64,000 nucleotides of DNA from Sinomicrobium soli (GTDB taxonomy: Bacteria; Bacteroidota; Bacteroidia; Flavobacteriales; Flavobacteriaceae), in contig NZ_QLNV01000003.1 in assembly GCF_003285545.1 (NCBI RefSeq), forward strand, positions 62,001-126,000. The letters run 5' to 3'. Below are positions 26,092-41,824 of this stretch, piece by piece. Made by a program: the position numbers and the translations under genes. The first letter of the stretch is position 1; each line of letters opens with the position of its first letter. The notes beneath the pieces were generated by a model. The model was not told the DNA's origin and did not search any database. It worked only from the letters and a program-made list of their open reading frames with translations.

Positions 26092-26099
26092 CAAAGATG
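26092..26099 (-). promoter_or_regulatory. Promoter -7 box for norZ-ric
   Basis: The minus strand reads CATCTTTG, one base off TAnnTTTG, 67 bp before the norZ start. Its last base (26092) is 36.5 nt from the centre of the palindrome at 26121-26136. Confidence 0.55.
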
Positions 26100-26120
26100 C
26101 CATACCCCTGCTTCCTGTTT

Positions 26121-26136
26121 TATGAGGGAGATCATA
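26121..26136. promoter_or_regulatory. Crp/Fnr-type operator for norZ
   Basis: TATGAGGGAGATCATA is a perfect 5-bp inverted repeat with a 6-bp spacer, the geometry of Crp/Fnr sites. Variants of the same motif stand before four other units in the window at the same distance from their boxes. Confidence 0.65.
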
Positions 26137-26220
26137 TTGCCATATACGGCCCGTTTCAAACGGATAACGGGCAGCCGTAAACCATTTTACAACTGCCCGT
26201 TATCAGGAAAAAAAAGAGTC

Positions 26221-26931
26221 TTATGTTCTTATCTGAACCGGCACACGGGAGGTTTCCGCCAGTTTTTCGGGAATATCCGTACCATCGCTTTCCATATCCC
26301 CGAGTGTCGGTACACCCGACCTGAATTTCTGGAGGTAATACACTCCTCCGTAACCTTTATCTTTGAGAAAGGCACTCATGGCAAACAGGTCGTCATACTT
26401 CAGGAGATCACCGTGAACGGTGGTCCGTACCTCAAACGGAACAGGGCCGGCCATCAGCAGGTCGAGACAGTGTTCGAACGCTTTGAAATACCTGCGCCCG
26501 GTAACGGCAACTTCCCTTTCGGGAAGGGCCTTAAAATCCAGGGCCACATAATCCACCAGTCCTTTCCGGAGCATTTTGTCCAGTATCACCGGCCTGCTGC
26601 CATTGGTATCTGCCTTGACCAGGAACCCCATATCCTTTATCCGGCCGGCAAAATCCGGAACCCCGGGATGCAGCAGGCATTCTCCCCCACTCATCACCAC
26701 ACCCTGCAACAAGCCCTGCCTGCTTTCCAGGAACTCCAGGGCCGCAGTGTAGGTATACTGTCCTTTTCCGAGTACAATTTCCGGGTTATAACAATACACA
26801 CACCGCATATTGCACCCGGCAAACCACAGGATACAGGACGGATGCCCGGGATAGTCCAGCAGGGTAAACGGGGTTATTCCGTAAATGTTCCTACTGCTTT
26901 TCCCTGAAATGCCTGCGCTGCCTGTGTTCAC
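26221..26931 (-). CDS. nrdG: Anaerobic ribonucleotide reductase activating protein
   Basis: Radical-SAM activase that places the glycyl radical on NrdD. 236 residues with the cluster motif CxxxCxxC at Cys40, Cys44, Cys47 (WFAGCNMRCVYCYNPE) and the SAM-binding VVMSGGECLLHPG. It is longer than the E. coli enzyme (about 154 residues) and closer to the TIGR02495 type found with Bacteroidota and archaeal NrdD. Its ATG (26931) lies inside the preceding glycyl-radical ORF, with a 41-bp overlap in another frame, so the two are probably translationally coupled. It is the last gene of the leftward thioredoxin-nrdD group. Confidence 0.9.
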   Translation of the reverse strand: MNTGSAGISGKSSRNIYGITPFTLLDYPGHPSCILWFAGCNMRCVYCYNPEIVLGKGQYTYTAALEFLESRQGLLQGVVMSGGECLLHPGVPDFAGRIKDMGFLVKADTNGSRPVILDKMLRKGLVDYVALDFKALPEREVAVTGRRYFKAFEHCLDLLMAGPVPFEVRTTVHGDLLKYDDLFAMSAFLKDKGYGGVYYLQKFRSGVPTLGDMESDGTDIPEKLAETSRVPVQIRT

Positions 26932-27043
26932 CCTTTTTTCCGGTATTAAAGCTTTCTACGGGCCTGTGGTATCCCATGACGCGGGTATACACCAGGCACC
27001 GGGTCCGGGATGCCTCCGGCAATTCCTGTGCTGTTGTTTTCAT
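26891..27043 (-). CDS. Separate glycyl-radical C-terminal domain of NrdD (50 residues)
   Basis: An ATG at 27043 opens a 50-codon frame ending in TAG at 26893-26891. After MKTTAQELPEASRTRC it reads LVYTRVMGYHRPVESFN and then a basic tail TGKKGEHRQRRHF. This is the C-terminal glycyl-radical loop of class III ribonucleotide reductase (RVxGYxRPVxxxNxGK), with the radical Gly at position 24. The large nrdD frame at 27675-29801 stops just after its zinc motif and lacks this loop, so the two pieces together make one complete NrdD. The leader before the ATG (CTAAGAACTAAAAAACTAAA) matches the leader of bcp near 61611, which supports translation. It could act as a detachable radical subunit in the manner of YfiD, or it could be the stranded end of a gene broken by the repeat block 27044-27674. 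Confidence 0.85.
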   Translation of the reverse strand: MKTTAQELPEASRTRCLVYTRVMGYHRPVESFNTGKKGEHRQRRHFREKQ

Positions 27044-27674
27044 TGTTTTAGTTTTTTAGTTCTTAGTTTGGGCATGCCTGAATACGGTTGCCTTTTTTCT
27101 GATTAATAATTAATTGTTACTATTGGTCTTTTGCTTCCTTTATGCTCTTGAAGTTCCTTTGCTCGTGGATTGGGATTCTTCGCTTCGCTACCCATGACGT
27201 ATCTATCCTAAGTTACTCCATCTCAAAGACTCCCCTCTTCAGACGAAGAGGGGTGGGCAGCTATGCTGGCCGGGGAGTTTTGACAGGCCTGAACTTTGGT
27301 GTATATACCCAAACGTTTGGTATTATCCTTATGATCCGGGCTTTCAAAACCCTCCGTCTCATCAAAGATGAGCCACCTCCCTTCGTCTGAAGGGAGGAGT
27401 TATGTGTAGGTTTATCACATTTGATAAATGAAGACTAAAACGTTATCTTCATTGATGCGGTTGCCCAAACGTTAGGTCTCTGAATGACAGGCATTGTCAT
27501 TCCGACGCAGGAGAACCCCGAAGGGCTCAACGCAATTAAATCTCCGGGGCTTCCTTTATGCTGTTGAAACTCCTTTGTGCCCGGGTAGTGATCCTTCCCC
27601 CAACCTGCTTCGACAGGCTCAGCAACCTAAAGCCGGGGCAGACACTTCGGTCCGGATGACAATTTTCTATCATT
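27044..27674. repeat. Repeat-rich gene-free block between the two parts of nrdD
   Basis: 631 bp without a credible ORF. It contains a direct repeat of about 33 bp (27133-27165 and 27549-27582, sharing GCTTCCTTTATGCT), two related palindromes (about 27227-27252 around CCCCTCTTCAGACGAAGAGG and 27368-27395 around CCTCCCTTCGTCTGAAGGGA), CCAAACGTTTGG (about 27310) with a degenerate copy near 27467, a TGTCATTCCGACGCAGGAGA element (about 27498) and a TGCTTCGACAGGCTCAGCAA element (about 27606). The last two types are commonly seen dispersed between genes in Bacteroidota. No reverse transcriptase, transposase or recognisable intron is present. At the left end, 27044-27092 carries an AGTTCTTAGTTTGGGCAT element also found at 61611-61650. 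Confidence 0.75.
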
Positions 27675-29801
27675 TCAGTATGTACTTTTCTGCTTCAATG
27701 CCTCCGCTTCTTCCCGTTTTTTCCGGAGCAGTATGTCATCGCATTTTGGGCAGAATTCATGTTCTCCCTGCAAGTAACCGTGCACCGGGCAAACACTGAA
27801 CACCGGGGTCACCGTGATATAGGGCAGCCTGAACCGGCTAAGCACGGTCTTGACAAACTGCCTGCAGGACTCCGCGGAGCTTATTCTTTCGCTCATATAC
27901 AGGTGCAGTACCGTACCCCCGGTGTATTTACACTGTAGTTCGTCCTGCATGAGAAGGGCCTCAAAAGGATCGTCGGTATAATCCACCGGAAGCTGGGAAC
28001 TATTGGTATAGTAGGGGTTTTCTACCGTTCCGGCCTGGATGATCTCCGGGTATCGCTTCCGGTCTTCCCTGGCAAACCTGTAGGTCGTACCTTCTGCAGG
28101 AGTGGCTTCCAGGTTATACAGGTTCCCGGTATTTTCCTGAAATTCCTTCAGACGGTTCCGTATGTGATCGAGTATTCCCATTGCCATTTCATGCCCGTAA
28201 CCGGTAGTGAGATCGTACCGGTCCCCGCTAAAATTCCGTACCATTTCGTTCATCCCGTTTACCCCTATGGTCGAAAAGTGATTGCGGAAATGCGGCAGGT
28301 ACCGCCTGGTGTAGGGATACAGCCCGCGGTCGTACATTTCCTGTATAAAAGCCCTCTTTTTCTCCAGGGTATTCCCGGCAATCTCCAGCAACCGGTCCAG
28401 GGCCCTGTACAACTGTTTCTGCCTGCCGGCATACACATAACCCAAACGGGCCATATTGATGGTCACCACACCGATACTTCCCGTCATTTCGGCACTCCCG
28501 AACAGTCCGTTGCCCCTTTTCAGCAATTCCCTCAGGTCGAGCTGCAACCTGCAGCACATACTGCGTACGGCATTGGGCTGATAGGCATCCGGGTTGGGTA
28601 CCCGGTGCCCTTCTTCGTCTACCAGGTACTGGCTGCCGATAAAATTCTGGAAATAGGAAGAGCCCATCCTCGCCGTATTTTCAAACAGCAGGTCGGTATT
28701 TTCCCCGTACCAGTCAAAATCTTCAGTAATATTGACGGTGGGAATGGGAAAGGTAAACGGCTGCCCGCCGGCATCTCCTTCGGTCATCACCTGGTAATAG
28801 GCCCTGTTGATCAGCTGCATCTCTTCCTGGAAATGGCCGTATTGCAGGGAAGTCAGCCCGGACACTCCCCGCTCCGCGGCTTTCCGCAGGAGCCCGGCAT
28901 CACGGACCCCTTCAAAAAGCGGCCGGTCTCCCCTTGTGGGCACCTGTGTTCTCAGGTCTTCCGGCACCACCCAGTCCAGGGTAATATTGGTAAAGGGCGA
29001 CTGCCCCCAGCGGGCCGGAACGTTCAGGTTATAGACAAAACTGCGAACGGCCTTATACACCTCTTCATACCCCAGTTTATCCTTAAAGACATAAGGAGCC
29101 AGGTAGGTGTCAAAAGAACTGAATGCCTGTGCCCCGGCCCATTCGCTCTGTAAGATCCCCAGAAAATTGGCCATCTGCCCCAGGGCTTCCCTGAAGTGGT
29201 TCGGAGGCCGGCTCTCCACTCTTCCGCGAACCCCGTTAAACCCTTCGTTCAGCAGGACCCTGAGGCTCCACCCCGCACAATAGCCGGTAAGGCAGTCGAG
29301 ATCGTGGATATGGAGGTCTCCGTTCCTGTGCGCATACCCCTCTTCCCTGGAATATACCTGGTCCAGCCAGTAGTTGGCAATGATCTTCCCGGCCACATTG
29401 TTCACCAGCCCGGCATTGGAATACGAGGTATTGGCATTGGCATTAATACGCCAGTCTTCCCGATCGGTATATTCCGCCACAGTCTGCGAACTGTCTACAT
29501 AGGTGGTATCGTCATTTAGTCCGCCCACATGTTCCCGCTGCATCTTTCGCGTATGCCGGTAAAGCATGAAGGAGCGCATCACCTCAAAATACCCGGCTTC
29601 GTACAGTATCTTTTCTATGATATCCTGAATGTCTTCCACGGCCAGGAGAACGTTCCCGTCCATACGTATCATAAGCCTTTCGTAAACCTCCGGGTCCGTT
29701 TCCTGTCCCACACTGTTAAACGCCTTCTCCAGTGCCGTACCGATCTTATGTGCCTCAAACGGGGCGTAGTCTCCGTTCCTTTTGATGACCCTCCTTCTCA
29801 T
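27675..29801 (-). CDS. nrdD: Anaerobic ribonucleoside-triphosphate reductase, body without glycyl-radical tail
   Basis: Class III ribonucleotide reductase, making dNTPs without oxygen. 708 residues: an ATP-cone (about 1-92, RRRVIKRNGDYAPFEAHKIG ... RHTRKMQRE), then the NrdD barrel with NANTSYSNAGLVNNVAGKI, HIHDLDCLTGYCAGWSL, GARAxxSF-like AGAQAFSSFDTYLAPYVF, QSPFTNITLDW and FTFPIPTVNIT. The C-terminus has the zinc motif (CPVHGYLQGEHEFCPKC) and then stops after 21 more residues. The usual RVMGYxRP glycyl-radical loop is absent from this frame and is found instead in the small ORF at 26891-27043. The start overlaps the thioredoxin-like gene by 4 bp (ATGA). Confidence 0.92.
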   Translation of the reverse strand: MRRRVIKRNGDYAPFEAHKIGTALEKAFNSVGQETDPEVYERLMIRMDGNVLLAVEDIQDIIEKILYEAGYFEVMRSFMLYRHTRKMQREHVGGLNDDTTYVDSSQTVAEYTDREDWRINANANTSYSNAGLVNNVAGKIIANYWLDQVYSREEGYAHRNGDLHIHDLDCLTGYCAGWSLRVLLNEGFNGVRGRVESRPPNHFREALGQMANFLGILQSEWAGAQAFSSFDTYLAPYVFKDKLGYEEVYKAVRSFVYNLNVPARWGQSPFTNITLDWVVPEDLRTQVPTRGDRPLFEGVRDAGLLRKAAERGVSGLTSLQYGHFQEEMQLINRAYYQVMTEGDAGGQPFTFPIPTVNITEDFDWYGENTDLLFENTARMGSSYFQNFIGSQYLVDEEGHRVPNPDAYQPNAVRSMCCRLQLDLRELLKRGNGLFGSAEMTGSIGVVTINMARLGYVYAGRQKQLYRALDRLLEIAGNTLEKKRAFIQEMYDRGLYPYTRRYLPHFRNHFSTIGVNGMNEMVRNFSGDRYDLTTGYGHEMAMGILDHIRNRLKEFQENTGNLYNLEATPAEGTTYRFAREDRKRYPEIIQAGTVENPYYTNSSQLPVDYTDDPFEALLMQDELQCKYTGGTVLHLYMSERISSAESCRQFVKTVLSRFRLPYITVTPVFSVCPVHGYLQGEHEFCPKCDDILLRKKREEAEALKQKSTY

Positions 29802-30439
29802 GATTTCCCGTTTGAAACCATCTGTCTGTCATTTTCCGCTTTTGCACCTGCCCACTGTAACAGGTCGTCCACGATCGAAGCTCCCCGGTCGCTGACATAC
29901 CACCGTTGCAGGGATTCCTTGAAGGCTGCATCCGGTTTTCCGTGCAGCGCCCTGTAATCGTTTACCATTGCTGTCGCAGCCCCGGAACGCGGTCCCCAGG
30001 TATACAGTACCTCCAGCGATTCATCAAGTACGATAAGCCTGGGAATGGAGCGCGTACCTCCGGTAAGGAAAAGCTCCATCAGTCCGGGGTTCTCGTCCCG
30101 GAGTACGATCTTCAGCTCTATTCCTGGTATATTACTGCATATCCTGTTAAATACCGGCAACGCCTGTGCCGCATCCCCGCACCAGCTCTCGGCGATCACC
30201 AGCCAGGTCTGTTTTCCCGTTATTTTTTCCGAAATCGCCTCTATATCCTGTGCGGAAACCTCTGCTTTCTTATCCATACGACGCATCCTGCTCGAGTTTA
30301 GCCTGGTATAGTGCACGAGCTCTTCCGTCTGTTCCGTACCGGTGGTCTTTCCTTCGGCTACCAGCCGGTCTGTCATTTCCCGGTATGCCTCATAGGAGAG
30401 GGCTTTCTGAAGACTTTTTTTTATAACGGTTCTTTTCAT
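29798..30439 (-). CDS. Thioredoxin-family protein with a single-Cys WCGDA motif
   Basis: 213 residues. The thioredoxin-like core (about 70-170) contains WLVIAESWCGDAAQALPVF and the cis-Pro region GTRSIPRLIVLD. The active site is WCGDA, with only one of the usual two Cys, as in the flavobacterial 'thioredoxin family' proteins that are often annotated without known function. The N-terminal 60 residues are helical and charged. It is the first gene of the leftward group with nrdD, the glycyl-radical ORF and nrdG, so it may supply or protect thiols for anaerobic reductase, though that is inference. Its promoter box (30569-30576) shares an operator with the nos operon. Confidence 0.8.
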   Translation of the reverse strand: MKRTVIKKSLQKALSYEAYREMTDRLVAEGKTTGTEQTEELVHYTRLNSSRMRRMDKKAEVSAQDIEAISEKITGKQTWLVIAESWCGDAAQALPVFNRICSNIPGIELKIVLRDENPGLMELFLTGGTRSIPRLIVLDESLEVLYTWGPRSGAATAMVNDYRALHGKPDAAFKESLQRWYVSDRGASIVDDLLQWAGAKAENDRQMVSNGKS

Positions 30440-30597: not shown

Positions 30598-30613
30598 CAT
30601 GACACATGTCATA
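30598..30613. promoter_or_regulatory. Bidirectional Crp/Fnr-type operator between nos and nrd units
   Basis: CATGACACATGTCATA fits TATGA-N6-TCATA with one mismatch and has a 6-bp inner inverted repeat ATGACA/TGTCAT. The centre (30605.5) is exactly 36.5 nt from the end of a promoter box on each side, so one site could activate both divergent units. Confidence 0.75.
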
Positions 30614-30634: not shown

Positions 30635-30642
30635 TACTTTTG
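30635..30642 (+). promoter_or_regulatory. Promoter -7 box for the nos operon
   Basis: TACTTTTG, a full match to TAnnTTTG, 32 bp before the cytochrome c start. The operator centre lies 36.5 nt upstream of its last base. Confidence 0.65.
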
Positions 30643-30674: not shown

Positions 30675-31178
30675 ATGAATGTTATCAGAACAACCGTTTT
30701 CATTCTCCTGGGAATACAACTCGCTGCCTGCGGCGGAGCCCCGGAAAAAAAAGAAAAATTCACCTATGAAAGGGTTCCTTCCGAGAAGAAAGCCAATACG
30801 GAGCATAACGTCGCTGCAACCCCATCCGCCGACGCCATGACCGACCTGGAAAACAAGGGGGTCGGCCCGGTTAAAAACCTGACCCTCGACACCGGCATAG
30901 ACCAGGCCATGGTTACGGCAGGGCAGGAACTGTTCAAAACCAAATGTACAGCCTGCCATAAACCGGATAAAAAATTTATAGGTCCGGCCCCCAAGGAAAT
31001 CCTGGACCGCCGCTCCCCGGAGTGGGTCATGAACATGATCCTGAACCCGGAGGTCATGGTCAAGGAAGACCCCATTGCAAAGCAGTTACTGATAGACTAT
31101 AACGGCTCACCGATGGCCAACCAGGGACTTACCGAAGAAGAAGCCAGAAAGATCCTGGAGTATTTCAGGACGCTTTAA
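30675..31178 (+). CDS. Monoheme cytochrome c lipoprotein of the nos operon
   Basis: 167 residues. Lipoprotein signal with Cys19 (LLGIQLAACGG), a charged linker, then a class I cytochrome c domain with heme site Cys91-Thr-Ala-Cys94-His95 (KTKCTACHKP) and a probable distal Met in NGSPMANQGL. It is first in the operon and 34 bp before nosZ, so I infer that it passes electrons to NosZ in the periplasm, as NosC-type cytochromes are thought to do in clade II nos clusters. Confidence 0.9.
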   Translation: MNVIRTTVFILLGIQLAACGGAPEKKEKFTYERVPSEKKANTEHNVAATPSADAMTDLENKGVGPVKNLTLDTGIDQAMVTAGQELFKTKCTACHKPDKKFIGPAPKEILDRRSPEWVMNMILNPEVMVKEDPIAKQLLIDYNGSPMANQGLTEEEARKILEYFRTL

Positions 31179-31212: not shown

Positions 31213-33174
31213 ATGAAACTAACGATCAGCAATTTATTGGTTACACTCGCTGTAGTATCCGGAATATCCGCCGGTTGTAACAATAATAAGTCTTCCGGCA
31301 ACCGTGGAGCCCTGGCCTCTTCTGCCGCAGAAAAAGTATACGTCGCCCCGGGAGAGCACGACGAATTCTATGCCTTCTTTTCGGGCGGGTACAGCGGAAA
31401 CCTCACGGTCTATGGCTTGCCTTCGGGCCGGATGTTTAAGGAAATCCCCGTGTTCTCCCAGTTTCCCACCAACGGATACGGGTATTCCGAAGAAACAAAG
31501 GCCATGCTGAATACTTCCCACGGGTTTATACCCTGGGACGACCTGCACCATCCCGATATTTCACAGACCAACGGAAAGCTGGACGGACGGTGGATCTTTG
31601 TGAACGGCAACAACACCCCGCGTATCGCGAGGATCGACCTCAGTACTTTCGAAACCGAAGAGATCATTGAGATCCCCAACAGCGCCGGGAACCACAGTTC
31701 TTCCTTTATAACCGAAAATACCGAATACGTAGTGGCCGGTACCCGGTTTTCGGTACCCGTACCCCAGCAGGACATTTCCATCAGCGAATACAAGGGAAAT
31801 TTCAAGGGAGCCCTGTCGTTTATCTCCGTAGCACCGGAAACGGGAAAGATGGACCTGAAATTCCAGATCATGATGCCGGGCTTCGACTACGACCTGTCGC
31901 ATCCCGGGCGCGGTAAGTCTCACGGCTGGTTTTTCTTTACCACCTATAATACCGAAGAGGCCAATACCCTTCTGGAAGTCAATGCTTCCCAGAATGACAA
32001 GGATTTTATTGCCGCCATCAACTGGAAAAAGATCGAAGCCTATGTCAATGAGGGAGGGGGAACAAAAATGCCTGCCAGCTATGCACATAACGAATATGAC
32101 GACAGCACCCACAGTGCCACCACTACTGTAAAAAAAGAAGTGCTGACCATAGACCCTACCGAAGTACCCGGTGCCGTTTTCTTTCTTCCCACCCCGAAAT
32201 CACCCCACGGTTGTGACGTAGACCCGACAGGGCAGTATATCATAGGGAACGGAAAACTCTCGGCAGACCTTACCATTCATTCCTTTGACAAGATGATCGC
32301 AGCCATCGAAGCGGAAAAATTTGACGGGGAGGCATACGGAATTCCCATATTAAATTTCGAGGACGTCCTGGCCGGCCAGGTAAAAAGCGGCGGACTCGGG
32401 CCCCTGCACACCGAATTTGACGGAAAGGGAAATGCCTACACTACCTTCTTTATTTCTTCGGAACTGGTTAAATGGAATGTAGAGACCCGGGAGGTCATAG
32501 ACCGGCAGCCCAACTACTATTCCGTAGGCCATGTCATGATCCCCGGCGGGAACTCCGCAGCGCCTTTTGGCAAATATGCCGTTGCGATGAATAAGATCAC
32601 CAAAGACCGGTACCTGCCCACCGGTCCGGAACTGGAACATTCGGCCCAGTTGTTCGATATCTCAGGAGACAAGATGCAGCTGCTGCTGGACTTTCCCACA
32701 CACGGAGAGCCGCATTATGCCGCCGGTATCCCTGCAGAGATCCTGGCTCCCAGGTCGAAGAAAATATACAAACTGGAAGACAACAAACACGAATTTGCCA
32801 TCCTCAGCAGCGAAGATAGCCGGGTAGAGCGGCAGGGCAATGAAGTGCATGTCTATATGTCCATGATACGAAGTCATTTTACCCCCGACAATATAGAAGG
32901 GATCAAGGTAGGCGACAAGGTGTATTTCCATATTACCAACCACGAACAGGATTTCGACGTGCCTCACGGCTTTGCCGTCATCGGGGCCAATAATGCCGAA
33001 TTGCTCATCATGCCGGGACAGACCAGGACCCTGGTCTGGGAACCAAAACAGGTAGGGGTTTGGCCCTTCTACTGTACCGATTTCTGTTCTGCACTGCACC
33101 AGGAAATGCAAGGGTATATTCGGGTTTCTCCGAAGGATTCCGATATCCGGTTACAATGGTCTCTCGGGGAATAA
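31213..33174 (+). CDS. nosZ: Nitrous oxide reductase, clade II type
   Basis: Copper enzyme reducing N2O to N2. 653 residues: a seven-bladed propeller with CuZ-type His segments (DDLHHPDIS, DLSHPGRGKSHGW, SPHGCDVDPTG, GLGPLHTEFDG, SVGHVMIPGG, HGEPHYAAG) and a C-terminal cupredoxin domain with the CuA ligands Cys621, Cys625, His629 and Met632 (FYCTDFCSALHQEMQGY). The N-terminus MKLTISNLLVTLAVVSGISA followed by GC is a Sec-type, probably lipoprotein, signal without a twin-arginine motif, which marks the atypical clade II. It is followed by the accessory genes for copper supply and maturation. Confidence 0.96.
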   Translation: MKLTISNLLVTLAVVSGISAGCNNNKSSGNRGALASSAAEKVYVAPGEHDEFYAFFSGGYSGNLTVYGLPSGRMFKEIPVFSQFPTNGYGYSEETKAMLNTSHGFIPWDDLHHPDISQTNGKLDGRWIFVNGNNTPRIARIDLSTFETEEIIEIPNSAGNHSSSFITENTEYVVAGTRFSVPVPQQDISISEYKGNFKGALSFISVAPETGKMDLKFQIMMPGFDYDLSHPGRGKSHGWFFFTTYNTEEANTLLEVNASQNDKDFIAAINWKKIEAYVNEGGGTKMPASYAHNEYDDSTHSATTTVKKEVLTIDPTEVPGAVFFLPTPKSPHGCDVDPTGQYIIGNGKLSADLTIHSFDKMIAAIEAEKFDGEAYGIPILNFEDVLAGQVKSGGLGPLHTEFDGKGNAYTTFFISSELVKWNVETREVIDRQPNYYSVGHVMIPGGNSAAPFGKYAVAMNKITKDRYLPTGPELEHSAQLFDISGDKMQLLLDFPTHGEPHYAAGIPAEILAPRSKKIYKLEDNKHEFAILSSEDSRVERQGNEVHVYMSMIRSHFTPDNIEGIKVGDKVYFHITNHEQDFDVPHGFAVIGANNAELLIMPGQTRTLVWEPKQVGVWPFYCTDFCSALHQEMQGYIRVSPKDSDIRLQWSLGE

Positions 33175-34099: not shown

Positions 34100-34588
34100 A
34101 TGTTATCAGAAATCATCAATATTATCAGGCCCTTCGCTGTCCTGTGCATTACTGCCTGTTTTTCAACTTCCTGCGAGGTAAAACCGGCTCCTATCGATTA
34201 CGGGACCGATAACTGCCAGTACTGCAAGATGACGATTGTAGACCGGCAGCATGCCGCCCAGATCGTAAGTGATAAGGGCCGTGTATATAAATTCGACGCT
34301 ATCGAATGTATGCTCGGTTACCAACAGGAAAATACCTCCCTGCCGGTATCGATCTGGCTGATAAATGATTACGAAAATCCCGGCAAACTTATCGACGCTA
34401 CCAAAGCCGCCTACCTGATAAGCACGGAAATACCGAGCCCCATGGGAGCCAACCTTTCCGGGTTCAATTCGGAAGAGGCTGCCAAAAAAGCACAGGCCGC
34501 TCACCCGGGCACACACTATGACTGGGAACAGCTGCTCGAACATTTCAGGGAACAGAACAGGCACCACCACCGTGAAACCTCTCCATAG
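34100..34588 (+). CDS. nosL: NosL copper chaperone lipoprotein
   Basis: Binds Cu(I) and delivers it for NosZ assembly in the periplasm. 162 residues: lipoprotein Cys25 (CFSTSCEVKP), the copper motif Cys39-x2-Cys42-x-Met44 (NCQYCKMTI), and the typical GRVYKFDAIECMLGY and PSPMGANLSGF segments. A His-rich tail (RHHHRE) is an extra possible metal site. It lies 28 bp before nosD. Confidence 0.93.
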   Translation: MLSEIINIIRPFAVLCITACFSTSCEVKPAPIDYGTDNCQYCKMTIVDRQHAAQIVSDKGRVYKFDAIECMLGYQQENTSLPVSIWLINDYENPGKLIDATKAAYLISTEIPSPMGANLSGFNSEEAAKKAQAAHPGTHYDWEQLLEHFREQNRHHHRETSP

Positions 34589-34616
34589 CATAATAACCCG
34601 GTAACCTGACCATCCG

Positions 34617-35858
34617 ATGAACCGATGGATTTTACATATAACAACGATGATCCTTTTAATTCCTCCTGCCGTATACGGACAAAAGACAGAAGTCTGCAAT
34701 ACCTGCCAGACCAGGACAATTACCGGGGCCATAAAAAAAGCCGCACCGTTTGACACCATTGTGGTAAAACCCGGTACTTACAGGGAATTCAATATCGGTA
34801 TTACCAAACCGCTTACCATTATAGGCGAAGGCAACCCCGTTATCGACGGGGAGAACAAGGGGGAGATCATTACGGTGCAGAGCGACCATGTCACCATTGA
34901 CGGATTTACGATCGTCAATGTCGGCACCAGCTATACCACCGATTACGCCGCGGTGCGGGTGGTTAAAAGCAGGCATTTTAATATCCGGAACAACACGCTC
35001 AGAAAACTGTTCTTCGGGATATATCTCGAAAAATCCGCCGAGGGTAAGGTGGTAAACAATACCATTGCAGGAGATGCCGTAAACGAGTACAATTCGGGCA
35101 ATGGCATACAGCTCTGGTATAGCCGCAAGGTGGAAGTCACCGGCAATACGGTTCAGAACGTACGCGACGGGATCTACCTGGAATTTTCGGACGACATCGC
35201 TATAAGCCACAACAAAAGTACCGGTAATCTGCGGTACGGCCTGCATTTTATGTTCTCGAACAACGACATCTATACCGACAACCTCTTTGAAAATAACGGT
35301 TCGGGGGTCGCCGTGATGTTCTCAAAATTCATAAAGATGCACCGGAATACGTTCCGGAAAAACTGGGGGCCGTCTTCCTATGGCCTGCTCCTCAAGGAGA
35401 TCACCGACTCCGAACTGTCGCACAATACCTTTGAGAACAATACCTCGGGGATCCATGCGGAAGGAATTTCCCGGGTGACCTTTACCGAAAATGATTTTGC
35501 AGATAACGGCTATGCCGTGAAGGTACGCGGGGCCTGTTACCACAATACCTTCTCGCACAATAATTTCCTGTACAACACTTTCGACCTCTCGTATTCCGGA
35601 CATATCAACGAAAACAGTTTCAACAGCAACTACTGGAGTGATTACCGCGGCTATGACCTGGACCGGGACGGTACCGGCGATGTGCCCTACCGCCCCGTTA
35701 AACTCTTTTCCTATATGACCGGCCAGGTGCCCGAAGCCATTGTTTTGCTTCGCAGCACCTTTGTCGGACTGCTGGATTTTTCAGAAAAGGTCTCCCCTGT
35801 TTTTACGCCTGCAGGCCTGTTGGACCACACTCCCGAAATGAAAAAGAACACATGGTAG
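34617..35858 (+). CDS. nosD: NosD periplasmic copper-handling protein
   Basis: 413 residues with signal peptide (ITTMILLIPPAVYGQ) and right-handed beta-helix repeats of the CASH type (for example IRNNTLRKLFFGIYLEKSAE, VTGNTVQNVRDGIYLEFSDD, FSNNDIYTDNLFENNGSG). NosD works with NosF and NosY to mature the CuZ centre. The stop overlaps the nosF start by 7 bp. Confidence 0.93.
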   Translation: MNRWILHITTMILLIPPAVYGQKTEVCNTCQTRTITGAIKKAAPFDTIVVKPGTYREFNIGITKPLTIIGEGNPVIDGENKGEIITVQSDHVTIDGFTIVNVGTSYTTDYAAVRVVKSRHFNIRNNTLRKLFFGIYLEKSAEGKVVNNTIAGDAVNEYNSGNGIQLWYSRKVEVTGNTVQNVRDGIYLEFSDDIAISHNKSTGNLRYGLHFMFSNNDIYTDNLFENNGSGVAVMFSKFIKMHRNTFRKNWGPSSYGLLLKEITDSELSHNTFENNTSGIHAEGISRVTFTENDFADNGYAVKVRGACYHNTFSHNNFLYNTFDLSYSGHINENSFNSNYWSDYRGYDLDRDGTGDVPYRPVKLFSYMTGQVPEAIVLLRSTFVGLLDFSEKVSPVFTPAGLLDHTPEMKKNTW

Positions 35859-36565
35859 ATATCAGAAATATAAGCAAATCTTTCGGCAGGAACCAGGTCC
35901 TGAAAGATCTCTCCCTGAACATTACACAAGAGGGAGTTACCGCCATTCTCGGCCCGAACGGTTCGGGAAAAACCACCCTGCTCAAGTGCATCCTCGGCCT
36001 GACCATCCCCGACCGGGGGAACATCACCGTACACGGCAGAGACATCCGCAAAGACGTAAAATACCGTGAAGACCTGGATTATCTCCCCCAGATCGCTGAT
36101 TTTCCGGCCAACCTGAAAGTGAGGGAACTCATAAAAATGATCGGGGAACTGCGCCACAGGACGACACGGGAAAACGAGCTGATCCGCTTTTTCGAACTGC
36201 AACCCTTCCTGGACAAAAAACTGGGTACGCTGTCCGGCGGGACCCGGCAAAAAGTAAACCTGGTACTCGCCTTTATGTTCAACAGTCCGCTGGTGATCCT
36301 GGACGAACCCTCTTCCGGGCTCGACCCGGTATCACTGCTTCGCCTGAAGCAATGGATACACGAGGAAAAGGAACAGGGCAAGGTAATATTGCTCACCTCG
36401 CATATCATGAGCCTGGTAGAGGAAATCGCCGAAAACATCGTTTTTCTCCTGGACGGAAAAATATACTTCTCCGGGACCATAGCCCGGCTGAGGTCGGAAA
36501 CGGAGGAACAAAACCTGGAACACGCCATTGCCGCACTCCTGTCCGGAAAATGCCTGGTCCGTTAA
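35852..36565 (+). CDS. nosF: NosF ABC ATPase
   Basis: ATPase of the NosDFY complex. 237 residues with Walker A GPNGSGKTT, Q-loop LPQIADFP, signature TLSGGTRQKVNL, Walker B LVILDEPSSGLD and H-loop LLTSHIM. It overlaps nosD and is 16 bp before nosY. Confidence 0.93.
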   Translation: MVDIRNISKSFGRNQVLKDLSLNITQEGVTAILGPNGSGKTTLLKCILGLTIPDRGNITVHGRDIRKDVKYREDLDYLPQIADFPANLKVRELIKMIGELRHRTTRENELIRFFELQPFLDKKLGTLSGGTRQKVNLVLAFMFNSPLVILDEPSSGLDPVSLLRLKQWIHEEKEQGKVILLTSHIMSLVEEIAENIVFLLDGKIYFSGTIARLRSETEEQNLEHAIAALLSGKCLVR

Positions 36566-36581
36566 ACAAAAAACAGTCGCC

Positions 36582-37364
36582 ATGCTCAAGATCATCAAAT
36601 ACAGTTTTTTCGACCTGCTGCGAAGTAAGTGGAGCTATGTCTATTTCCTGTTCTACCTGCTGCTGGGCAGCGTATTGCTGTTCCTTAACAACGACCTTTC
36701 GGGGGCCGTCATTACGCTGATGAACGTCAATATCATTCTCGTGCCCCTTATCGCTACCGTGTTCGGGGTGATGTACTATTACAACTCCGGCGAATTCACC
36801 ATTCTTCTCCTGGCGCAGCCTGTCAGGCGGCGTACCGTATTTACCGGGCAATACCTCGGCATTGCCGGTTCCCTTGCCCTCAGTCTTGTACTCGGGCTCG
36901 GGATCCCCTTTGCCGCATACGGGCTGTTCCGCTCCGCGGCGATATGGGACTTTGCCGTACTGCTCCTCACCGGGGTGGCACTAACCTTTATTTTTACCCT
37001 GCTGGCATTCAATATCGCCCTTTCCAACGAAAACCGCATCAAGGGATTTGGCTATGCCATACTGTTATGGCTGCTGCTGGCTATCGCCTATGACGGTATT
37101 TTCCTGTTGCTGCTCGCCCACTTCCAGGAATACCCGCTGGAAAGGTTTGCCCTTACCGCCACAGTGCTGAACCCGGTAGACCTGGCGCGTATACTCATCC
37201 TCCTCAAACTGGATATTTCTGCGCTTATGGGATATACCGGGGCCGTATTCAAGCAGTTTTTCGGAACCGGTGCCGGCAGCCTGCTCTCCGGGCTGGTATT
37301 GCTGCTCTGGATCTTTGTTCCCCTGTGGTGGTTGCAGAAAAGCGCCCGGAAAAAGGATTTCTGA
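36582..37364 (+). CDS. nosY: NosY ABC permease
   Basis: 260 residues from ATG 36582 (MLKIIKYSFFDLLRSKW), six membrane helices, ABC-2 permease type, with the conserved GEFTILLLAQPVRRRTVFTG coupling segment. It is the membrane partner of NosF. The frame is open to 36528, but that extension overlaps nosF and lacks family character. Confidence 0.92.
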   Translation: MLKIIKYSFFDLLRSKWSYVYFLFYLLLGSVLLFLNNDLSGAVITLMNVNIILVPLIATVFGVMYYYNSGEFTILLLAQPVRRRTVFTGQYLGIAGSLALSLVLGLGIPFAAYGLFRSAAIWDFAVLLLTGVALTFIFTLLAFNIALSNENRIKGFGYAILLWLLLAIAYDGIFLLLLAHFQEYPLERFALTATVLNPVDLARILILLKLDISALMGYTGAVFKQFFGTGAGSLLSGLVLLLWIFVPLWWLQKSARKKDF

Positions 37365-37430: not shown

Positions 37431-38366
37431 ATGTACGATCATACTTTTTACCAGGAAGAAATTAAAAAATTATTAAAGGATAAAAATGCCATCCTCCTCG
37501 CCCATTATTACCAGGACCCTTCCATACAGGACCTGGCCGATGTGGTCGGGGACAGTCTTGAACTGGCCCGGCACGCTGCAAAGACCGATGCCCCGGTTAT
37601 TGTTTTTGCCGGGGTCTATTTTATGGCAGAGACCGCCAAGATCCTCAACCCCGGAAAAAAGGTCCTGTTGCCCGACCTTTCGGCAGGATGCTCCCTTGCC
37701 GACCACTGTACGCCCGAAGCGTTCACGGTGTTCCGCCAGCGCTATCCGGACCACCGGGTGGTGAGTTATATCAATACCAGTGCAGCGATAAAGGCCCTGA
37801 GTGATTACGTATGTACCTCCTCCAATGCCGAAAGGGTGATCCGCTCCGTTCCGGAGGATCAGCCGCTTATTTTTGCACCGGACAAAAATCTCGGAAAATA
37901 TCTGATAGAGAAAACGGGAAGAGATATGGTCCTCTGGGAAGGGTCGTGCGTGGTTCACGAAGCTTTTTCCATGGAAAAGCTGATCGCACTGGTCCGGAAA
38001 TATCCCGGAGCCAGGATCGTGGCCCACCCGGAATCGGAAATGTGTATCCTTCGGGCCGCCCACTATACGGGCTCTACTTCACAGATGAGGAGATATGTTC
38101 GTAAAAGTAAGGCTTCCGCATTTATCATAGGGACCGAAGCAGGGGTAATCCACCAGATGAAAAGGGAATGCCCGGAAAAAGAGTTTATTCCCCTTCCCTC
38201 CCGTGAGGACAACAGCTGCGCCTGCAGCGAATGTGCCTATATGAAGGTGAATACGCTGGAAAAGCTTTATCGCTGCCTCCGGAATGAGGCCCCGGAGGTT
38301 CACATAGGAGAAACCCTGAGAAAAAATGCCCTTCGTCCCATCCGTAAAATGTTCGAATTATCGTGA
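37431..38366 (+). CDS. nadA: Quinolinate synthase A
   Basis: Condenses iminoaspartate with dihydroxyacetone phosphate to quinolinate for NAD synthesis. 311 residues with the expected [4Fe-4S] Cys in SAGCSLADHC (Cys87), EGSCVVHEAFS and CACSECAYMK, and the substrate motif AHYYQDPSIQDLADVVGDSL. It follows nosY by 66 bp with no evident promoter of its own, and shares a 4-bp overlap with nadB. Its presence in a nos operon is unusual. Confidence 0.94.
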   Translation: MYDHTFYQEEIKKLLKDKNAILLAHYYQDPSIQDLADVVGDSLELARHAAKTDAPVIVFAGVYFMAETAKILNPGKKVLLPDLSAGCSLADHCTPEAFTVFRQRYPDHRVVSYINTSAAIKALSDYVCTSSNAERVIRSVPEDQPLIFAPDKNLGKYLIEKTGRDMVLWEGSCVVHEAFSMEKLIALVRKYPGARIVAHPESEMCILRAAHYTGSTSQMRRYVRKSKASAFIIGTEAGVIHQMKRECPEKEFIPLPSREDNSCACSECAYMKVNTLEKLYRCLRNEAPEVHIGETLRKNALRPIRKMFELS

Positions 38367-39835
38367 AACCCTGTGATGTACTTGTTCTCGGCTCCGGAAT
38401 TGCCGGGTTGTCTTTTGCCATAAGCCTGGCTTCCCGCCGGCCTGACCTGTCTGTCCGGATATGCAGTAAAACAGGGCAAACCGCATGCAATACCTGGTAT
38501 GCCCAGGGTGGAATTGCCGCTGTGACCGACCGGGACAGGGATGCTTTTGAAGATCATATCCGCGATACCATACAGGCCGGAGGCGGATACTGTAACGAGC
38601 AGGTAGTAAGGGCTGTCGTAGAGGATGCCCCCGGCTGCATTGCCAGCCTCAGTCAATGGGGGGTCCCCTTCGACCGTACGCCGGCAGGGGCATGGGACAC
38701 CGGGCTGGAAGGAGGGCACTCCTATCCCCGCATCCTGCATTGCGCAGACCGGACAGGGGCATATATCATACGAAGCCTGCTGCATTACGCAAAAAGGCTT
38801 GACAACATCACGTTCCACTCCGGATTTTTTGCGACCGATCTCATCATCCGGGACCGGCAGTGTTTCGGGGTGTACTACCTCGATGAGCGATCAGGCATCC
38901 CGAAGAGCTGTCCAGCAAAGATCACTTACCTCGCTACGGGGGGAAGCGGGCAACTCTTCCGGGTAACCACCAACCCCGCGATCGCTACCGGAGACGGGGT
39001 GGCCATGGCGCACCGCGCCGGGGCACGGGTAGAACATATGGGCTTTTACCAGTTTCACCCTACGGCATTTTCCGGTGCAAAAAGCAACCCGGCTTTCCTC
39101 ATATCGGAAGCCGTACGGGGATTCGGGGCACACGTTATCAACAGGCAGGAAAAACGCTTTCTGTTTGAGTACGACCCCAGGGGGGAACTGGCCACACGGG
39201 ATATCGTGAGCAGGGCGATATGGCTCGAATGCCGTAAAAACCATACTGCCCATGTATACCTGGACTGTCGCCACCTCAACAGGAAAGCCTTTTTGCACGC
39301 TTTTCCGGCAATTGCAGCACATTGCAGGCAGGCAGGCTACGATCTCTTCAAAACACCGGTACCCGTTATGCCTGCCGCGCACTACCAGTGCGGAGGTATC
39401 GCCATCGACCTGCAGGGAAGAACGACCATCGGAAACCTGTATGCTAACGGAGAATGTGCCTGCAGCGGGCTCCACGGCGCCAACCGGCTCGCCTCCAATT
39501 CCCTGCTGGAAGCGGTGGCCATTGCCCGCAGGGCTGCGGGAAACGTGCTCTCCGGTATAGACGACCTTGCCTCCCCTGTAATACACCAGGAAAAAAAACC
39601 GGGGATTTCCGCTTCCGCCGAAACCGGGCCGGACAAAATTATTTATCTTCGGCAACAGTTGCAGAAGGTGATGTACGATGCTTATGTTTCCGGGATTACC
39701 GGGACAGTTCCGGCGGAAAACACAGGAACGGAACAGCTTTCGCAGGAAACCGACAAGCTGTTACGGCACCGTGCCCCGTCAAAGTCATCATACGAATTAC
39801 GTAACCTGCTCACAGTAGCCCGGATGATCTCATGA
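38363..39835 (+). CDS. nadB: L-aspartate oxidase
   Basis: FAD enzyme oxidising L-aspartate to iminoaspartate, and able to use fumarate instead of oxygen. 490 residues with FAD motif VLGSGIAGLSFAI, WYAQGGIAAV, HxR region GGHSYPRILHCADRTG, LATGGSGQLFRVTTNP, HPTAF and GANRLASNSLLEAV. GTG start overlaps the nadA stop (GTGA), and its own stop overlaps the next ATG (ATGA), so three genes are translationally coupled. Confidence 0.94.
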   Translation: MKPCDVLVLGSGIAGLSFAISLASRRPDLSVRICSKTGQTACNTWYAQGGIAAVTDRDRDAFEDHIRDTIQAGGGYCNEQVVRAVVEDAPGCIASLSQWGVPFDRTPAGAWDTGLEGGHSYPRILHCADRTGAYIIRSLLHYAKRLDNITFHSGFFATDLIIRDRQCFGVYYLDERSGIPKSCPAKITYLATGGSGQLFRVTTNPAIATGDGVAMAHRAGARVEHMGFYQFHPTAFSGAKSNPAFLISEAVRGFGAHVINRQEKRFLFEYDPRGELATRDIVSRAIWLECRKNHTAHVYLDCRHLNRKAFLHAFPAIAAHCRQAGYDLFKTPVPVMPAAHYQCGGIAIDLQGRTTIGNLYANGECACSGLHGANRLASNSLLEAVAIARRAAGNVLSGIDDLASPVIHQEKKPGISASAETGPDKIIYLRQQLQKVMYDAYVSGITGTVPAENTGTEQLSQETDKLLRHRAPSKSSYELRNLLTVARMIS

Positions 39836-41052
39836 AAACAATAAAGTTCCAGACCCGTATTGCCCTGGCCTGTTTTTTTCTGGCCACCCTTATGGGGGTT
39901 CTGCTTCGCGCCTTCCCTCTTGCCGACCCCGGGTTTACCTACAGGTATATGGTACACGGGCACTCCCATATTGCCCTCCTCGGGTGGGTATACCTGGCGC
40001 TGACCACACTGATGTGTTTGCTGTTCCTCCCGGAAAAAAAGCTGAATGCCGCTTTCCGGAAAATTTCGGGCGTGACCTGGCTGTCCCTGGCTGGAATGCT
40101 GGTCACCTTTCCCCTTGTGGGGTACCGCCCTGTTTCCATTGTCTTTTCCACCCTGTTTATCCTGGTCAGTTATGTATTTGCCTGGTTCTTTATAAAACAT
40201 ACTCCCAAGGCCTTACGGCAGCGGAATTCCTGGAAATGTCTCCGGGCGGGGCTGTTCTATATGATGCTTTCCAGTCTGGGCCCCTGGTCCCTGGGGATAA
40301 TCATGAACACCCTGGGCAGTACTTCCGTATGGTATAAGACAGCCGTATACTTCTACCTGCATTTCCAGTACAACGGATGGTTTATCACAGCACTTTGCGG
40401 CTTCCTGTTCTATATTCTCGAAACCGGGGGCATAAAAATACCGAAATCCCGCTTCCGCCTTTTTTACAGGCTGTTGAATGGCGGGATCATTCTCAGTTTT
40501 TTCCTCTCGGTACTCTGGACCGGGCCCTATACCTCCTTTCATGTGCTGGGGCTCACGGGTGGCCTGCTCCAGGCCGCAGCTTTTATACTGCTTTGCAATA
40601 TGCTCAGGAACCGGAAGGGGCGGCCAAAGCCCGGAAATCGCCTGTCCGGCCGGGTACTGTTCCTTTTCCGGTTCAGCGGTGTGTTACTGGCAGTGAAGCT
40701 GTTATTACAGTACCTGTCGGGTATGCCCGTACTCTCAGATGTGGTCTATCGCATCACCGAATTCGTGATAGGCTACCTGCACCTGACGTTTCTCGGGGTC
40801 ATTTCGACAGCGCTGCTTGGGCTCCTGCTTCATTTCCGGCTTATAAGAATACCGGCGGTTGCCATGCCGATCTACCTGCTTGCATTCCTGGTTACCGAAG
40901 GGCTTATTTTTTACAAGGCCGTAGCCCTGTGGCAAAACTGGCCCGTACCGGGGCATTACTACCTGCTGTTACTGGCGGGCAGTTTTCTTTTTCCGGTGGC
41001 TACGGGTATATTGCTTCTGAACAACCGGAAAAGCCCCTGGCATTACCGGTAG
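39832..41052 (+). CDS. Twelve-helix heme-copper-oxidase-like membrane protein, unassigned
   Basis: 406 residues with about twelve membrane helices. Helix 2 carries HGHSHIALLGWVYLAL, later helices carry FYLHFQYNGWF, TSFHVLGLTGG and GYLHLTFLGVIST. His residues at these spots resemble heme ligand positions of heme-copper oxidases and of NnrS, but the CuB-type H-P-E/D-V-Y and HH motifs and the NOR Glu are absent, so it is not a normal terminal oxidase. The ATG overlaps the nadB stop by 4 bp, and its 3' end overlaps the convergent Crp/Fnr gene by 10 bp. I infer a heme-binding membrane protein linked to NO/N2O metabolism or to electron disposal for NadB; the role is open. Confidence 0.6.
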   Translation: MKTIKFQTRIALACFFLATLMGVLLRAFPLADPGFTYRYMVHGHSHIALLGWVYLALTTLMCLLFLPEKKLNAAFRKISGVTWLSLAGMLVTFPLVGYRPVSIVFSTLFILVSYVFAWFFIKHTPKALRQRNSWKCLRAGLFYMMLSSLGPWSLGIIMNTLGSTSVWYKTAVYFYLHFQYNGWFITALCGFLFYILETGGIKIPKSRFRLFYRLLNGGIILSFFLSVLWTGPYTSFHVLGLTGGLLQAAAFILLCNMLRNRKGRPKPGNRLSGRVLFLFRFSGVLLAVKLLLQYLSGMPVLSDVVYRITEFVIGYLHLTFLGVISTALLGLLLHFRLIRIPAVAMPIYLLAFLVTEGLIFYKAVALWQNWPVPGHYYLLLLAGSFLFPVATGILLLNNRKSPWHYR

Positions 41053-41648
41053 ATTTTCCGGTTCACCAGTTTGAGCTCTCCTTTCTGCTCCAGCGATTTC
41101 CCTGCGCGTATCACGGTTTCCACCCGGAGCCCGGTAAGGTCGGCTATTTGCTGGCGGGTGAGGTCTACCCTGAAGGAAAAGGTACCTTCCAGATGGTATA
41201 CATGCTTTTTCAGGTAGTCCAGTATCCTGAGGATACGGTGTTCGGCCTCCTGTCCCGACAACTCGCTGGCCATGATGGATTTGTAATACAGCCTTCCCGC
41301 CAGGGCCCGGGTAACCTTGAGGTGCTCATCGGGATACGACTCCAGGAGGCGGTACAGCCCGGTACGGGAAAGACGGTATACACTGCAGTCGGTAAGAGCC
41401 TCGGCATTGGCGGGATAACTGATGTCGACAAACAGGGGAGGCTCACCGAAACTCTCTCCTTCCGAAAACAGCCCCTGGATAAACTCTTTTCCATCCCCGG
41501 TAAAATTATTCATTTTAACCTGCCCGGTAAAGATCTGAAAGTAATTACTGGCCCGCTGCTTTTCGTGAAAAATAATATCCCCCTTATCGTAAGAGACGAG
41601 TTCCGCGCCGAAATCGAGAAGTAAATCAGGATCTATCATATCCCACAT
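41043..41648 (-). CDS. Crp/Fnr-family regulator of the local NO/N2O/anaerobic regulon
   Basis: 201 residues: a cyclic-nucleotide-binding-like beta-roll (about 15-110, YDKGDIIFHEKQRASNYFQI, FSEGESFGEPPLF), dimer helix, and a C-terminal winged HTH with recognition helix TGLRVETVIRAGKSLEQKG. The E-T-V-x-R pattern is that of Crp/Fnr proteins that read a TGA core. The Fnr-type N-terminal Cys cluster is absent, so it is not an O2-sensing [4Fe-4S] Fnr; DNR- or HcpR-type NO sensing through heme is possible. Two TATGA-N6-TCATA-like palindromes lie upstream, one positioned at its own promoter, suggesting autoregulation. Confidence 0.85.
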   Translation of the reverse strand: MWDMIDPDLLLDFGAELVSYDKGDIIFHEKQRASNYFQIFTGQVKMNNFTGDGKEFIQGLFSEGESFGEPPLFVDISYPANAEALTDCSVYRLSRTGLYRLLESYPDEHLKVTRALAGRLYYKSIMASELSGQEAEHRILRILDYLKKHVYHLEGTFSFRVDLTRQQIADLTGLRVETVIRAGKSLEQKGELKLVNRKIYR

Positions 41649-41683
41649 TTATGGTATTGGTCGTTCTTGTATTATGAAAAATC

Positions 41684-41691
41684 CAAAGGTG
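41684..41691 (-). promoter_or_regulatory. Promoter -7 box for the Crp/Fnr gene
   Basis: The minus strand reads CACCTTTG, one base off TAnnTTTG. Its last base (41684) is 36.5 nt from the centre of the operator at 41713-41728. Confidence 0.5.
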
Positions 41692-41712
41692 AAAATTCAA
41701 AACCGGGCATCC

Positions 41713-41728
41713 TATGATATTTATCATT
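41713..41728. promoter_or_regulatory. Crp/Fnr-type operator for the regulator gene
   Basis: TATGATATTTATCATT fits TATGA-N6-TCATA with one mismatch; the inner ATGATA/TATCAT repeat is perfect. It is placed to regulate the gene ending at 41043. Confidence 0.65.
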
Positions 41729-41776
41729 TTTTACGGCGGTACACCGGAAATTCACAGGCCCGGGCAGGCCATTGCC

Positions 41777-41798
41777 TTTTATGATCCGGATCATAAAA
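41777..41798. promoter_or_regulatory. Crp/Fnr-type operator for the small membrane gene
   Basis: A perfect 22-bp palindrome whose core 41780-41795 is TATGATCCGGATCATA. It is the strongest of the four copies. Confidence 0.75.
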
Positions 41799-41816
41799 TC
41801 TCCCCGGATCAACATC

Positions 41817-41824
41817 TAACTTTA
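41817..41824 (+). promoter_or_regulatory. Promoter -7 box for the 94-residue membrane protein gene
   Basis: TAACTTTA, one base off TAnnTTTG, with its last base 36.5 nt from the operator centre at 41787.5. The start codon is at 41856. Confidence 0.5.

Follow-up and report, generated by a model that had tools for sequence, protein, structure and literature searches.

In the 64,000-nucleotide stretch of the Sinomicrobium soli genome analyzed here (contig NZ_QLNV01000003.1, positions 62,001 to 126,000; the window hereafter), five promoters of genes for nitric oxide (NO), nitrous oxide (N2O) and anaerobic metabolism place a CRP/FNR-type palindrome at one fixed distance from a flavobacterial -7 box. 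This promoter spacing rule is real and widespread in Flavobacteriaceae. The initial annotation had read the sites as one local regulon of the Crp/Fnr protein encoded at 41043-41648 (the window Crp); we consider it probable that they belong to two overlapping regulons, one for low oxygen and one for NO, which share one class II geometry.

Direct reading of the sequence confirmed the four palindromes and the five boxes that had been proposed. Two palindromes fit TATGA-N6-TCATA perfectly, TATGAGGGAGATCATA at 26121-26136 upstream of norZ-ric and TATGATCCGGATCATA at 41780-41795 upstream of a small membrane gene. Two carry one mismatch, CATGACACATGTCATA at 30598-30613, which is common to two divergent promoters, and TATGATATTTATCATT at 41713-41728 upstream of the crp gene. 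The boxes, likewise read in the sequence, are CATCTTTG for norZ (26099-26092, minus strand), TATTTTTG for the thioredoxin gene and nrdD (trx-nrdD; 30576-30569, minus), TACTTTTG for cytochrome c-nosZ (30635-30642, plus), CACCTTTG for crp (41691-41684, minus) and TAACTTTA for the small membrane gene (41817-41824, plus). TAnnTTTG is exact in two of the five and one base off in three. Measured to the last base of the box, the palindrome centre is indeed 36.5 nt away in all five promoters, the constant distance described earlier. In Flavobacterium psychrophilum the TAnnTTTG box maps at -12 to -5 from transcription starts (PMC9723704), a position that would here place the site centre at -41.5. The class II geometry would thus hold, provided that starts follow the box as mapped in that flavobacterium.

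The spacing, and not the palindrome, departs from chance. At up to one mismatch the window holds five palindromes against 1.85 expected, and one of 100 shuffles reaches five; the fifth, at 62451, plays no part in the finding. The palindrome alone occurs 196 times in the whole genome, and because this count barely exceeds the 170 of reversed controls, it says little by itself. We also used a free-gap pattern, ATGA-N6-TCAT followed after 7-37 bases (31 values) by the box, in which a gap of 22 corresponds to the 36.5-nt spacing. Eight of its ten matches in the 4.6-Mb genome (reversed control, two) lie at gap 22; the fifth window promoter, with box TAACTTTA, is outside the ten because the pattern requires the final G. 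Beyond the window, four of six matches fall at gap 22 (binomial with p=1/31, about 1.5e-5). Across 149 Flavobacteriaceae genomes, 677 of the 1,883 matches are at gap 22 and the other 30 gaps average 40.2 each, while the reversed control gives 763 matches in total, 20 of them at gap 22. At least one gap-22 site is present in 125 of the 149 genomes. The annotation had allowed that the motif might be equally common at other spacings: this is close to true of the palindrome alone, but with the box gap 22 stands out, and both the genome scan and the family scan place the spacing beyond chance.

From the spacing, its conservation, the two site types and the target genes, all obtained by comparison, we infer binding, O2 and NO signals, activation and a cascade as follows. 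A CRP/FNR dimer at -41.5 beside the TAnnTTTG box would form a Bacteroidota-type class II activator promoter. The low-oxygen regulon would be family-wide; its operator is roughly ATGA-Y-WWWW-R-TCAT, and its reader would be an FNR-like protein that has conserved cysteines, a receiver-CRP fusion under the control of a FixL-like PAS kinase, or both. In the window it would include nos, trx-nrdD and crp; outside it, this genome's ccoNO, hemN and usp genes. A small NO regulon, whose operator TATGA-N6-TCATA mostly has G or C in its centre, would be read by the window Crp and would comprise the small membrane gene and norZ-ric. The crp gene would be activated by the low-oxygen regulators, and its product would then answer NO from the same -41.5 position, in a two-tier circuit that may work like ANR-DNR or FixK-NnrR. 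NO as the signal of the window Crp is suggested by its targets and by its sequence nearness to DNR.

Genome counts indicate which regulator goes with the sites. A regulator was counted as present at E-values no worse than 1e-40 for the FNR-like protein, about 2e-68 for the fusion and 4e-42 for the window Crp, and FNR-like paralogues of about 31% identity were excluded. Among the 149 genomes the window Crp has orthologues in 31, the FNR-like protein in 91 and the fusion in 66. The mean number of gap-22 sites is 0.6 in genomes with no regulator (n=24), 1.0 with the window Crp only (n=4, with 0-2 sites each), 4.0 with the FNR-like protein only (n=45) and 5.6 with the fusion only (n=19). For combinations it is 3.3 with FNR-like protein and window Crp (n=10), 3.2 with fusion and window Crp (n=11), 8.4 with FNR-like protein and fusion (n=30) and 8.7 with all three (n=6). 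In a regression that includes genome size, the effect on gap-22 sites is +2.9 for the FNR-like protein (t 5.6), +4.1 for the fusion (t 8.6) and -1.1 for the window Crp (t -2.0); the corresponding t values for the other 30 gaps are 1.7, -0.5 and -0.3. The gap-22 spacing occurs without a clear window-Crp orthologue in 96 of its 125 genomes, and in this genome cbb3 oxidase, hemN and usp genes have it as well. The recognition of a true operator set with NO, N2O and anaerobic targets is supported; its assignment to a single local regulon under the 41043-41648 protein is not.

The nos promoter provides the closest comparison. A gap-22 site with at most one mismatch in 14 is found at this promoter in 63 of 69 NosZ genomes (64 at up to two mismatches). 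Without the window Crp it is kept in 14 of 16 genomes with the FNR-like protein only, 10 of 11 with the fusion only and 22 of 23 with both, 46 of 50 in total. With the window Crp it is kept in two of four that also hold the FNR-like protein, 10 of 10 that hold the fusion and five of five with all three, 17 of 19 in total. These figures argue that a window-type Crp is dispensable for nos. The six genomes without such a site are G142, G135, G077, G146, G022 (two mismatches) and G066 (980 bases upstream); the scan left out G128 (NosZ above the cut-off) and fragments of G048 and G058, and took in fragments of G124 and G146. All nine gap-22 sites were followed in G145, which has the FNR-like protein only, and all nine in G143, which has the fusion only. 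In both genomes a FixI-type ATPase, ccoS/ccoNO, usp and nadA lie behind such sites, usp and nadA being second genes in G145. The other targets that could be given a name are nos, thioredoxin, hemN, pta-ackA and a 600-residue gene in G145, and mlaE-mlaF and a ferredoxin oxidoreductase in G143, all named by eye from their sequences. Because the two lists overlap in targets, the same promoters appear to be held by different regulators.

Comparison of 62 nos sites (this genome excluded) with 37 sites of the window-Crp type separates two kinds of operator. The central four bases are all A/T in 60 of 62 nos sites and in two of 37 Crp-type sites; among Crp-holding genomes only, 15 of 16 nos sites have the all-A/T centre. 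The last base is A in 37 of 62 nos sites and in 37 of 37 Crp-type sites. Leave-one-out assignment is correct for 58 of the 62 and 36 of the 37. The gap is 22 or 23 for Crp-type sites and 22 for the best nos sites. Exact TATGA-N6-TCATA is present in 36 of the 37 Crp-type sites, which are thus not like the DNR/NnrR operator TTGATnnnnATCAA. In the window, the log2 odds assign norZ-ric (+16.3) and the small membrane gene (+19.0) to the Crp type, and nos (-6.2), trx-nrdD (-7.9) and crp (-13.7) to the nos, or anaerobic, type; this genome's six other gene-tied sites all score as nos type (-7 to -17).

The surroundings of the window Crp in relatives agree with this division. Of 29 orthologue loci (own locus excluded), 25 have an exact TATGA-N6-TCATA no more than about 1.5 kb from the Crp gene (the reversed pattern gives 0), compared with seven of 29 loci of the FNR-like gene and nine of 29 of the fusion. 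When a box at gap 22-23 is also required, 23 of 30 Crp loci (own included) have the palindrome with no more than one mismatch in 16 bases, eight of the 30 without any mismatch; the G119 orthologue, which has no locus, was excluded from these counts. Many boxes near the Crp gene start with G instead of T. The small membrane gene lies near Crp in 13 of 20 neighborhoods (tblastn), and most such sites face it. In G086, G138 and G148, and with one change in G051, the palindrome stands beside crp in genomes that by our thresholds have neither the FNR-like protein nor the fusion. Seven named loci agree, with boxes at one mismatch or fewer: Sinomicrobium weinanense, Sinomicrobium bin6, Aquimarina, two environmental bins, Chryseobacterium and Ancylomarina. 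In Ancylomarina (order Marinilabiliales) the Crp gene neighbors ric and norZ, which TATGATTTGGATCATA faces. Chryseobacterium endalhagicum (Weeksellaceae; L374:10001-11250) carries two tandem Crp copies, of 46% and 43% identity to the window Crp, with one site before and one after them.

Crp-type sites also face ric in G100, G142, G096 and G007, norZ in G031 and G033 (second copy; site or box imperfect) and a group III truncated hemoglobin in G033 (2ig3, 1.8e-13); in G096 a similar truncated hemoglobin gene follows the membrane gene. By site position, ric, norZ and truncated hemoglobin would make this an NO-metabolism regulon of the DNR/NnrR kind. Among 19 genomes with a close NorZ, the 11 without the window Crp have no norZ site at up to one mismatch; G011 has one match at two mismatches and G019 one palindrome without a box. 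In four of the eight Crp-holding NorZ genomes, an Rrf2-type gene lies just upstream of a norZ that lacks the palindrome (L376:1461-1907, L377:2216-2641, L385:1311-1742 and L386:1240-1671, identified by a hidden Markov model (HMM) for G127 (L376) only), an apparent swap of the NO regulator. One frame lies between the Rrf2-type gene and norZ in three of these four loci. Comparative support that the window Crp would read the small-membrane-gene site is good and that it would read the norZ-ric site is fair; for nos/nrdD and its own promoter it is weak.

Fourteen stretches of this genome match the cNMP-binding family, and three proteins share the recognition helix E-x-x-I-R: the window Crp (VETVIR), an FNR-like protein on contig C40 whose gene adjoins ccoNO (TESLIR) and a 352-residue fusion (PESFIR). 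The earlier argument from the helix therefore stands in one respect, as E-x-x-I-R fits a TGA core, and falls in the other, since two further Crp/Fnr paralogues carry the same helix and it cannot single out the window protein. The helix was rejected as a discriminator of the paralogues. Membership of the window Crp in the CRP/FNR superfamily is clear from PF00027 (1.2e-18) and PF13545 (1e-07). Its model, with a mean pLDDT (predicted local distance difference test) of 82.9, matches CRP at a template-modeling (TM) score of 0.80, and the fold search ranks CRP first; model and search gave the CRP fold alone and no clue to the sensor. At the position of the cyclic-nucleotide Arg-Ser cassette, which we take to be R82 and S83 in E. 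coli CRP, the window Crp has Y-P-A-N in an alignment made by eye, with P79, N81 and A82 invariant in nine sequences; it thus seems to be without the cAMP residues of CRP. It has one cysteine in 201 residues, which is not invariant, and so lacks the 4Fe-4S cysteines of FNR. DNR (3dkw, 8.7e-14) is third in the list of its solved-structure relatives, and CRP matches at 1.8e-11.

The two candidate low-oxygen readers differ in architecture. All 30 compared sequences of the FNR-like C40 protein share six cysteines, with a CxxC motif N-terminally; the best solved relative of this protein is 2gau, presumably a structure from P. gingivalis. The fusion joins a receiver domain to a Crp-like protein, and a PAS histidine kinase is paired with it in 30 of 30 loci. 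The kinase PAS matches FixL at 1.5e-14 with HD aligned to HD, and this histidine, which we take to be the FixL heme ligand, is present in 22 of 23 covered loci (seven of the 30 loci are without coverage). To judge from its sequence, the kinase fits FixL in pairing a PAS domain that has a putative proximal heme histidine with a kinase. The kinase gene is followed by the fusion gene at C40:17135-19397 (L088:5136-7398), as a FixL-FixJ-FixK chain cut to two proteins.

Three other explanations have to be weighed against two overlapping regulons. That all four sites are bound by the window Crp, as the regulator of nor, ric, nrdD, nos and crp itself, is unlikely. The four sites do fit TATGA-N6-TCATA at up to one mismatch within 16 kb around crp, the helix E-T-V-I-R suits the TGA core, and full palindromes are no commoner with Crp, so the operators could be near enough for cross-binding in vivo. 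Against such a local regulon, the nos site is kept in nearly all nosZ genomes that lack the window Crp, the number of sites does not rise with this protein, the four Crp-only genomes have few or none, and the site centres differ between the types. The converse, in which the FNR-like protein or the fusion reads every site, including those of norZ and the membrane gene, and the window Crp has an unrelated operator, we regard as less likely still. The geometry is the same throughout and the three paralogues have E-x-x-I-R, but TATGA-N6-TCATA persists beside crp in the genomes that hold neither regulator (G086, G138, G148, and G051 with one change), and all 11 Crp-less NorZ genomes lack the norZ site (at up to one mismatch) even though 10 of them have one or both of the other regulators. 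Very improbable is the notion that the palindromes are repressor sites or chance occurrences and the boxes ordinary promoters. It would suit the near-background frequency of the palindrome alone; it is opposed by the single-spacing excess in 149 genomes, by the nos promoters and by the position itself, a site at -41.5 being the classical activator arrangement. Within two overlapping regulons, a more specific version has one low-oxygen promoter code whose readers were exchanged (FNR-like protein, kinase with fusion, or both) and a third Crp with a private NO dialect, told apart by the site centre and not by the recognition helix; we hold this version tentatively, at a little under even.

Several observations weigh against two overlapping regulons. 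The Crp-type set was gathered at up to one palindrome mismatch, with the six centre bases free, so that its flanks are conserved partly by selection. Eight palindromes were left out of the set (two of G142, two of G033 facing norZ, G129 C6, G148 C36, one of Chryseobacterium and one of Ancylomarina), and two of these eight have an all-A/T centre. The window nos site, at -6.2, scores less clearly than most. Full palindromes with a box at gap 16-26 number 1.65 per genome with the window Crp (n=31) and 1.64 without (n=94, all holding the FNR-like protein or the fusion), and 34 of the 62 nos sites are full palindromes as well; such counts were rejected as a mark of Crp genomes, and because they do not set these genomes apart the split rests on place and site centre. 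A low-oxygen site before crp is found in this genome, weakly in Sinomicrobium weinanense (two mismatches) and in Sinomicrobium bin6 (three mismatches), and among the other 29 orthologue loci G027 alone has a crp-facing site with a near box; the cascade thus rests on one genus. A site before a norZ copy is present in just four of the eight Crp-holding NorZ genomes (this genome, G007, G031 and G033). Six of the 24 genomes with none of the three regulators have at least one site (two of them are 73% and 82% complete), and the counts over 149 genomes of one family ignore kinship.

Fixed-spacing search of this genome, with mismatches counted over 16 bases, extends the list of targets. At up to three mismatches there are 67 matches against 56 reversed controls, so most three-mismatch matches are noise. 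Nineteen matches have one or two mismatches; five are the window promoters and six are tied to genes, namely ccoNO, two usp genes, hemN, an mlaE-F-D-usp cluster and a 600-residue gene. Of these, ccoNO, one usp and hemN were named by HMM and the others by eye. The match at C28:1579 was rejected as it has no gene behind it, and that at C38:41362 as it lies inside a gene; the tally leaves out six of the 19 (C8:22939, C11:76067, C11:468356, C39:237737, C41:78271 and C42:81383). Such gene content resembles an FNR/FixK/ANR regulon. The 600-residue gene, on contig C22 (L086:7405-9207) and with a start reading ...HSFHIPVMGLAFTVDTP, follows its gap-22 site without a Pfam or NCBIfam match, and a gene with a similar start lies behind a site of G145.

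The genes behind the window promoters are as follows. On the minus strand, norZ (23791-26025) encodes a quinol-type NO reductase with NorB cytochrome c-like and COX1 domains, and ric (23047-23769) a di-iron repair protein of the ric/scdA/ytfE type with ScdA_N and hemerythrin domains. The divergent unit on the same strand consists of a Thioredoxin_9 gene (29798-30439) and nrdD for class III ribonucleotide reductase (27675-29801), both by domain match; an nrdG-type activase gene (NrdG2, 26221-26931) follows 743 bases downstream. The annotation had joined trx, nrdD and nrdG in one unit. The box serves trx-nrdD, but a single transcript that includes nrdG is uncertain because these 743 bases (26932-27674) hold no clear gene; they contain repeat-like stretches by eye, and nrdG may have its own promoter. 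On the plus strand the nos cluster begins with a cytochrome c gene (30675-31178, domain match) and Sec-dependent nosZ of the clade II type (31213-33174, TIGR04246), followed at 34100-37364 by nosL, nosD, an ABC ATPase that its position marks as nosF, and nosY, placed by position alone (the frame has no match). Within the cluster sit nadA and nadB (37431-39835; NadB just below the TIGR00551 cut-off); behind a gap-22 site, nadA is the first gene in G143 and the second in G145. A COX1-like half protein, below the Pfam cut-off, is last in the cluster (39832-41052). Its gene follows norZ in G007 and lies beside ric in G142 and G031, and because relatives place it by norZ or ric it may belong to NO handling. 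The proposed NO-responsive activator, the window Crp of 201 residues, is encoded on the minus strand at 41043-41648. The small membrane protein (94 residues; 41856-42140, plus), a frequent partner of crp, gave no match in Pfam and NCBIfam searches; SSC-x-G is invariant in six aligned sequences.

In the ANR-DNR cascade a low-oxygen CRP/FNR regulator is followed by an NO-responsive one. The Pseudomonas ANR/FNR-DNR system (PMC1274295) is alike in its related TGA-N6-TCA operators and in having nor, nos and hemN among its targets. It differs in that the second operator base here is A and not T (TATGA, not TTGAT), in the promoter box, in that the tiers here are told apart by the site centre and in that nos here lies in the oxygen tier. 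The Bradyrhizobium FixL-FixJ-FixK2-NnrR chain (PMC6710368) shares a heme-PAS kinase, cbb3 oxidase targets and an NnrR-like lower tier. In the present system, however, a single protein joins receiver and CRP-like output in place of separate FixJ and FixK. Nitrosophilus labii belongs to another phylum. Its clade II nosZ has proposed Crp/Fnr control and its class III ribonucleotide reductase responds too, but the proposed sites follow TTGA-N6-TCAA, without a reported fixed spacing to a TAnnTTTG box in the accessible part of the report (PMC11539149). HcpR of Bacteroidota and other anaerobes is likewise a CRP/FNR-family regulator of NO defense, and from the same phylum (PMC1274295 and PMC12750200, in part), but its core target is hcp, and no HcpR-named entry is among the 60 solved-structure matches listed for the window Crp. 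The portion of PMC1274295 available treats HcpR in Bacteroides and Porphyromonas, and no flavobacterial DNR was found there. PgRsp of Porphyromonas gingivalis is another redox-sensing Crp/Fnr protein of Bacteroidota, for which no operator was found in the available text (PMC6955866), and a CRP/FNR homologue of a Flavobacteriales bin has been proposed to be MalR-like (PMC8510549, in part). In Flavobacterium psychrophilum, oxygen limitation strongly induces cbb3 oxidase and heme-synthesis enzymes (PMC9723704); "Fnr" and "Crp" are absent from the main text. Among the titles and abstract starts listed in searches of the open-access literature we found no regulator or operator named for Flavobacteriaceae nos genes and no paper on the present operator or regulon in this family; operator strings with ATGA or TATGA ends are in none of the papers listed for them.

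The kind of system is thus already known, as FNR/ANR/FixK with DNR/NnrR (PMC1274295, in part). New, as far as those titles and abstract starts show, are the family operator with its fixed geometry, the two proposed dialects and the receiver-CRP fusion under a putative FixL-like kinase. Bacteria with clade II NosZ, a group that includes many Bacteroidota, act as sinks for the greenhouse gas N2O. The rule of ATGA-N6-TCAT, 22 bases and TAnnTTTG predicts low-oxygen-induced genes in Flavobacteriaceae and names candidate regulators for them. It offers a means to part oxygen control from NO control, and a case of regulators replaced beneath an unchanged operator.

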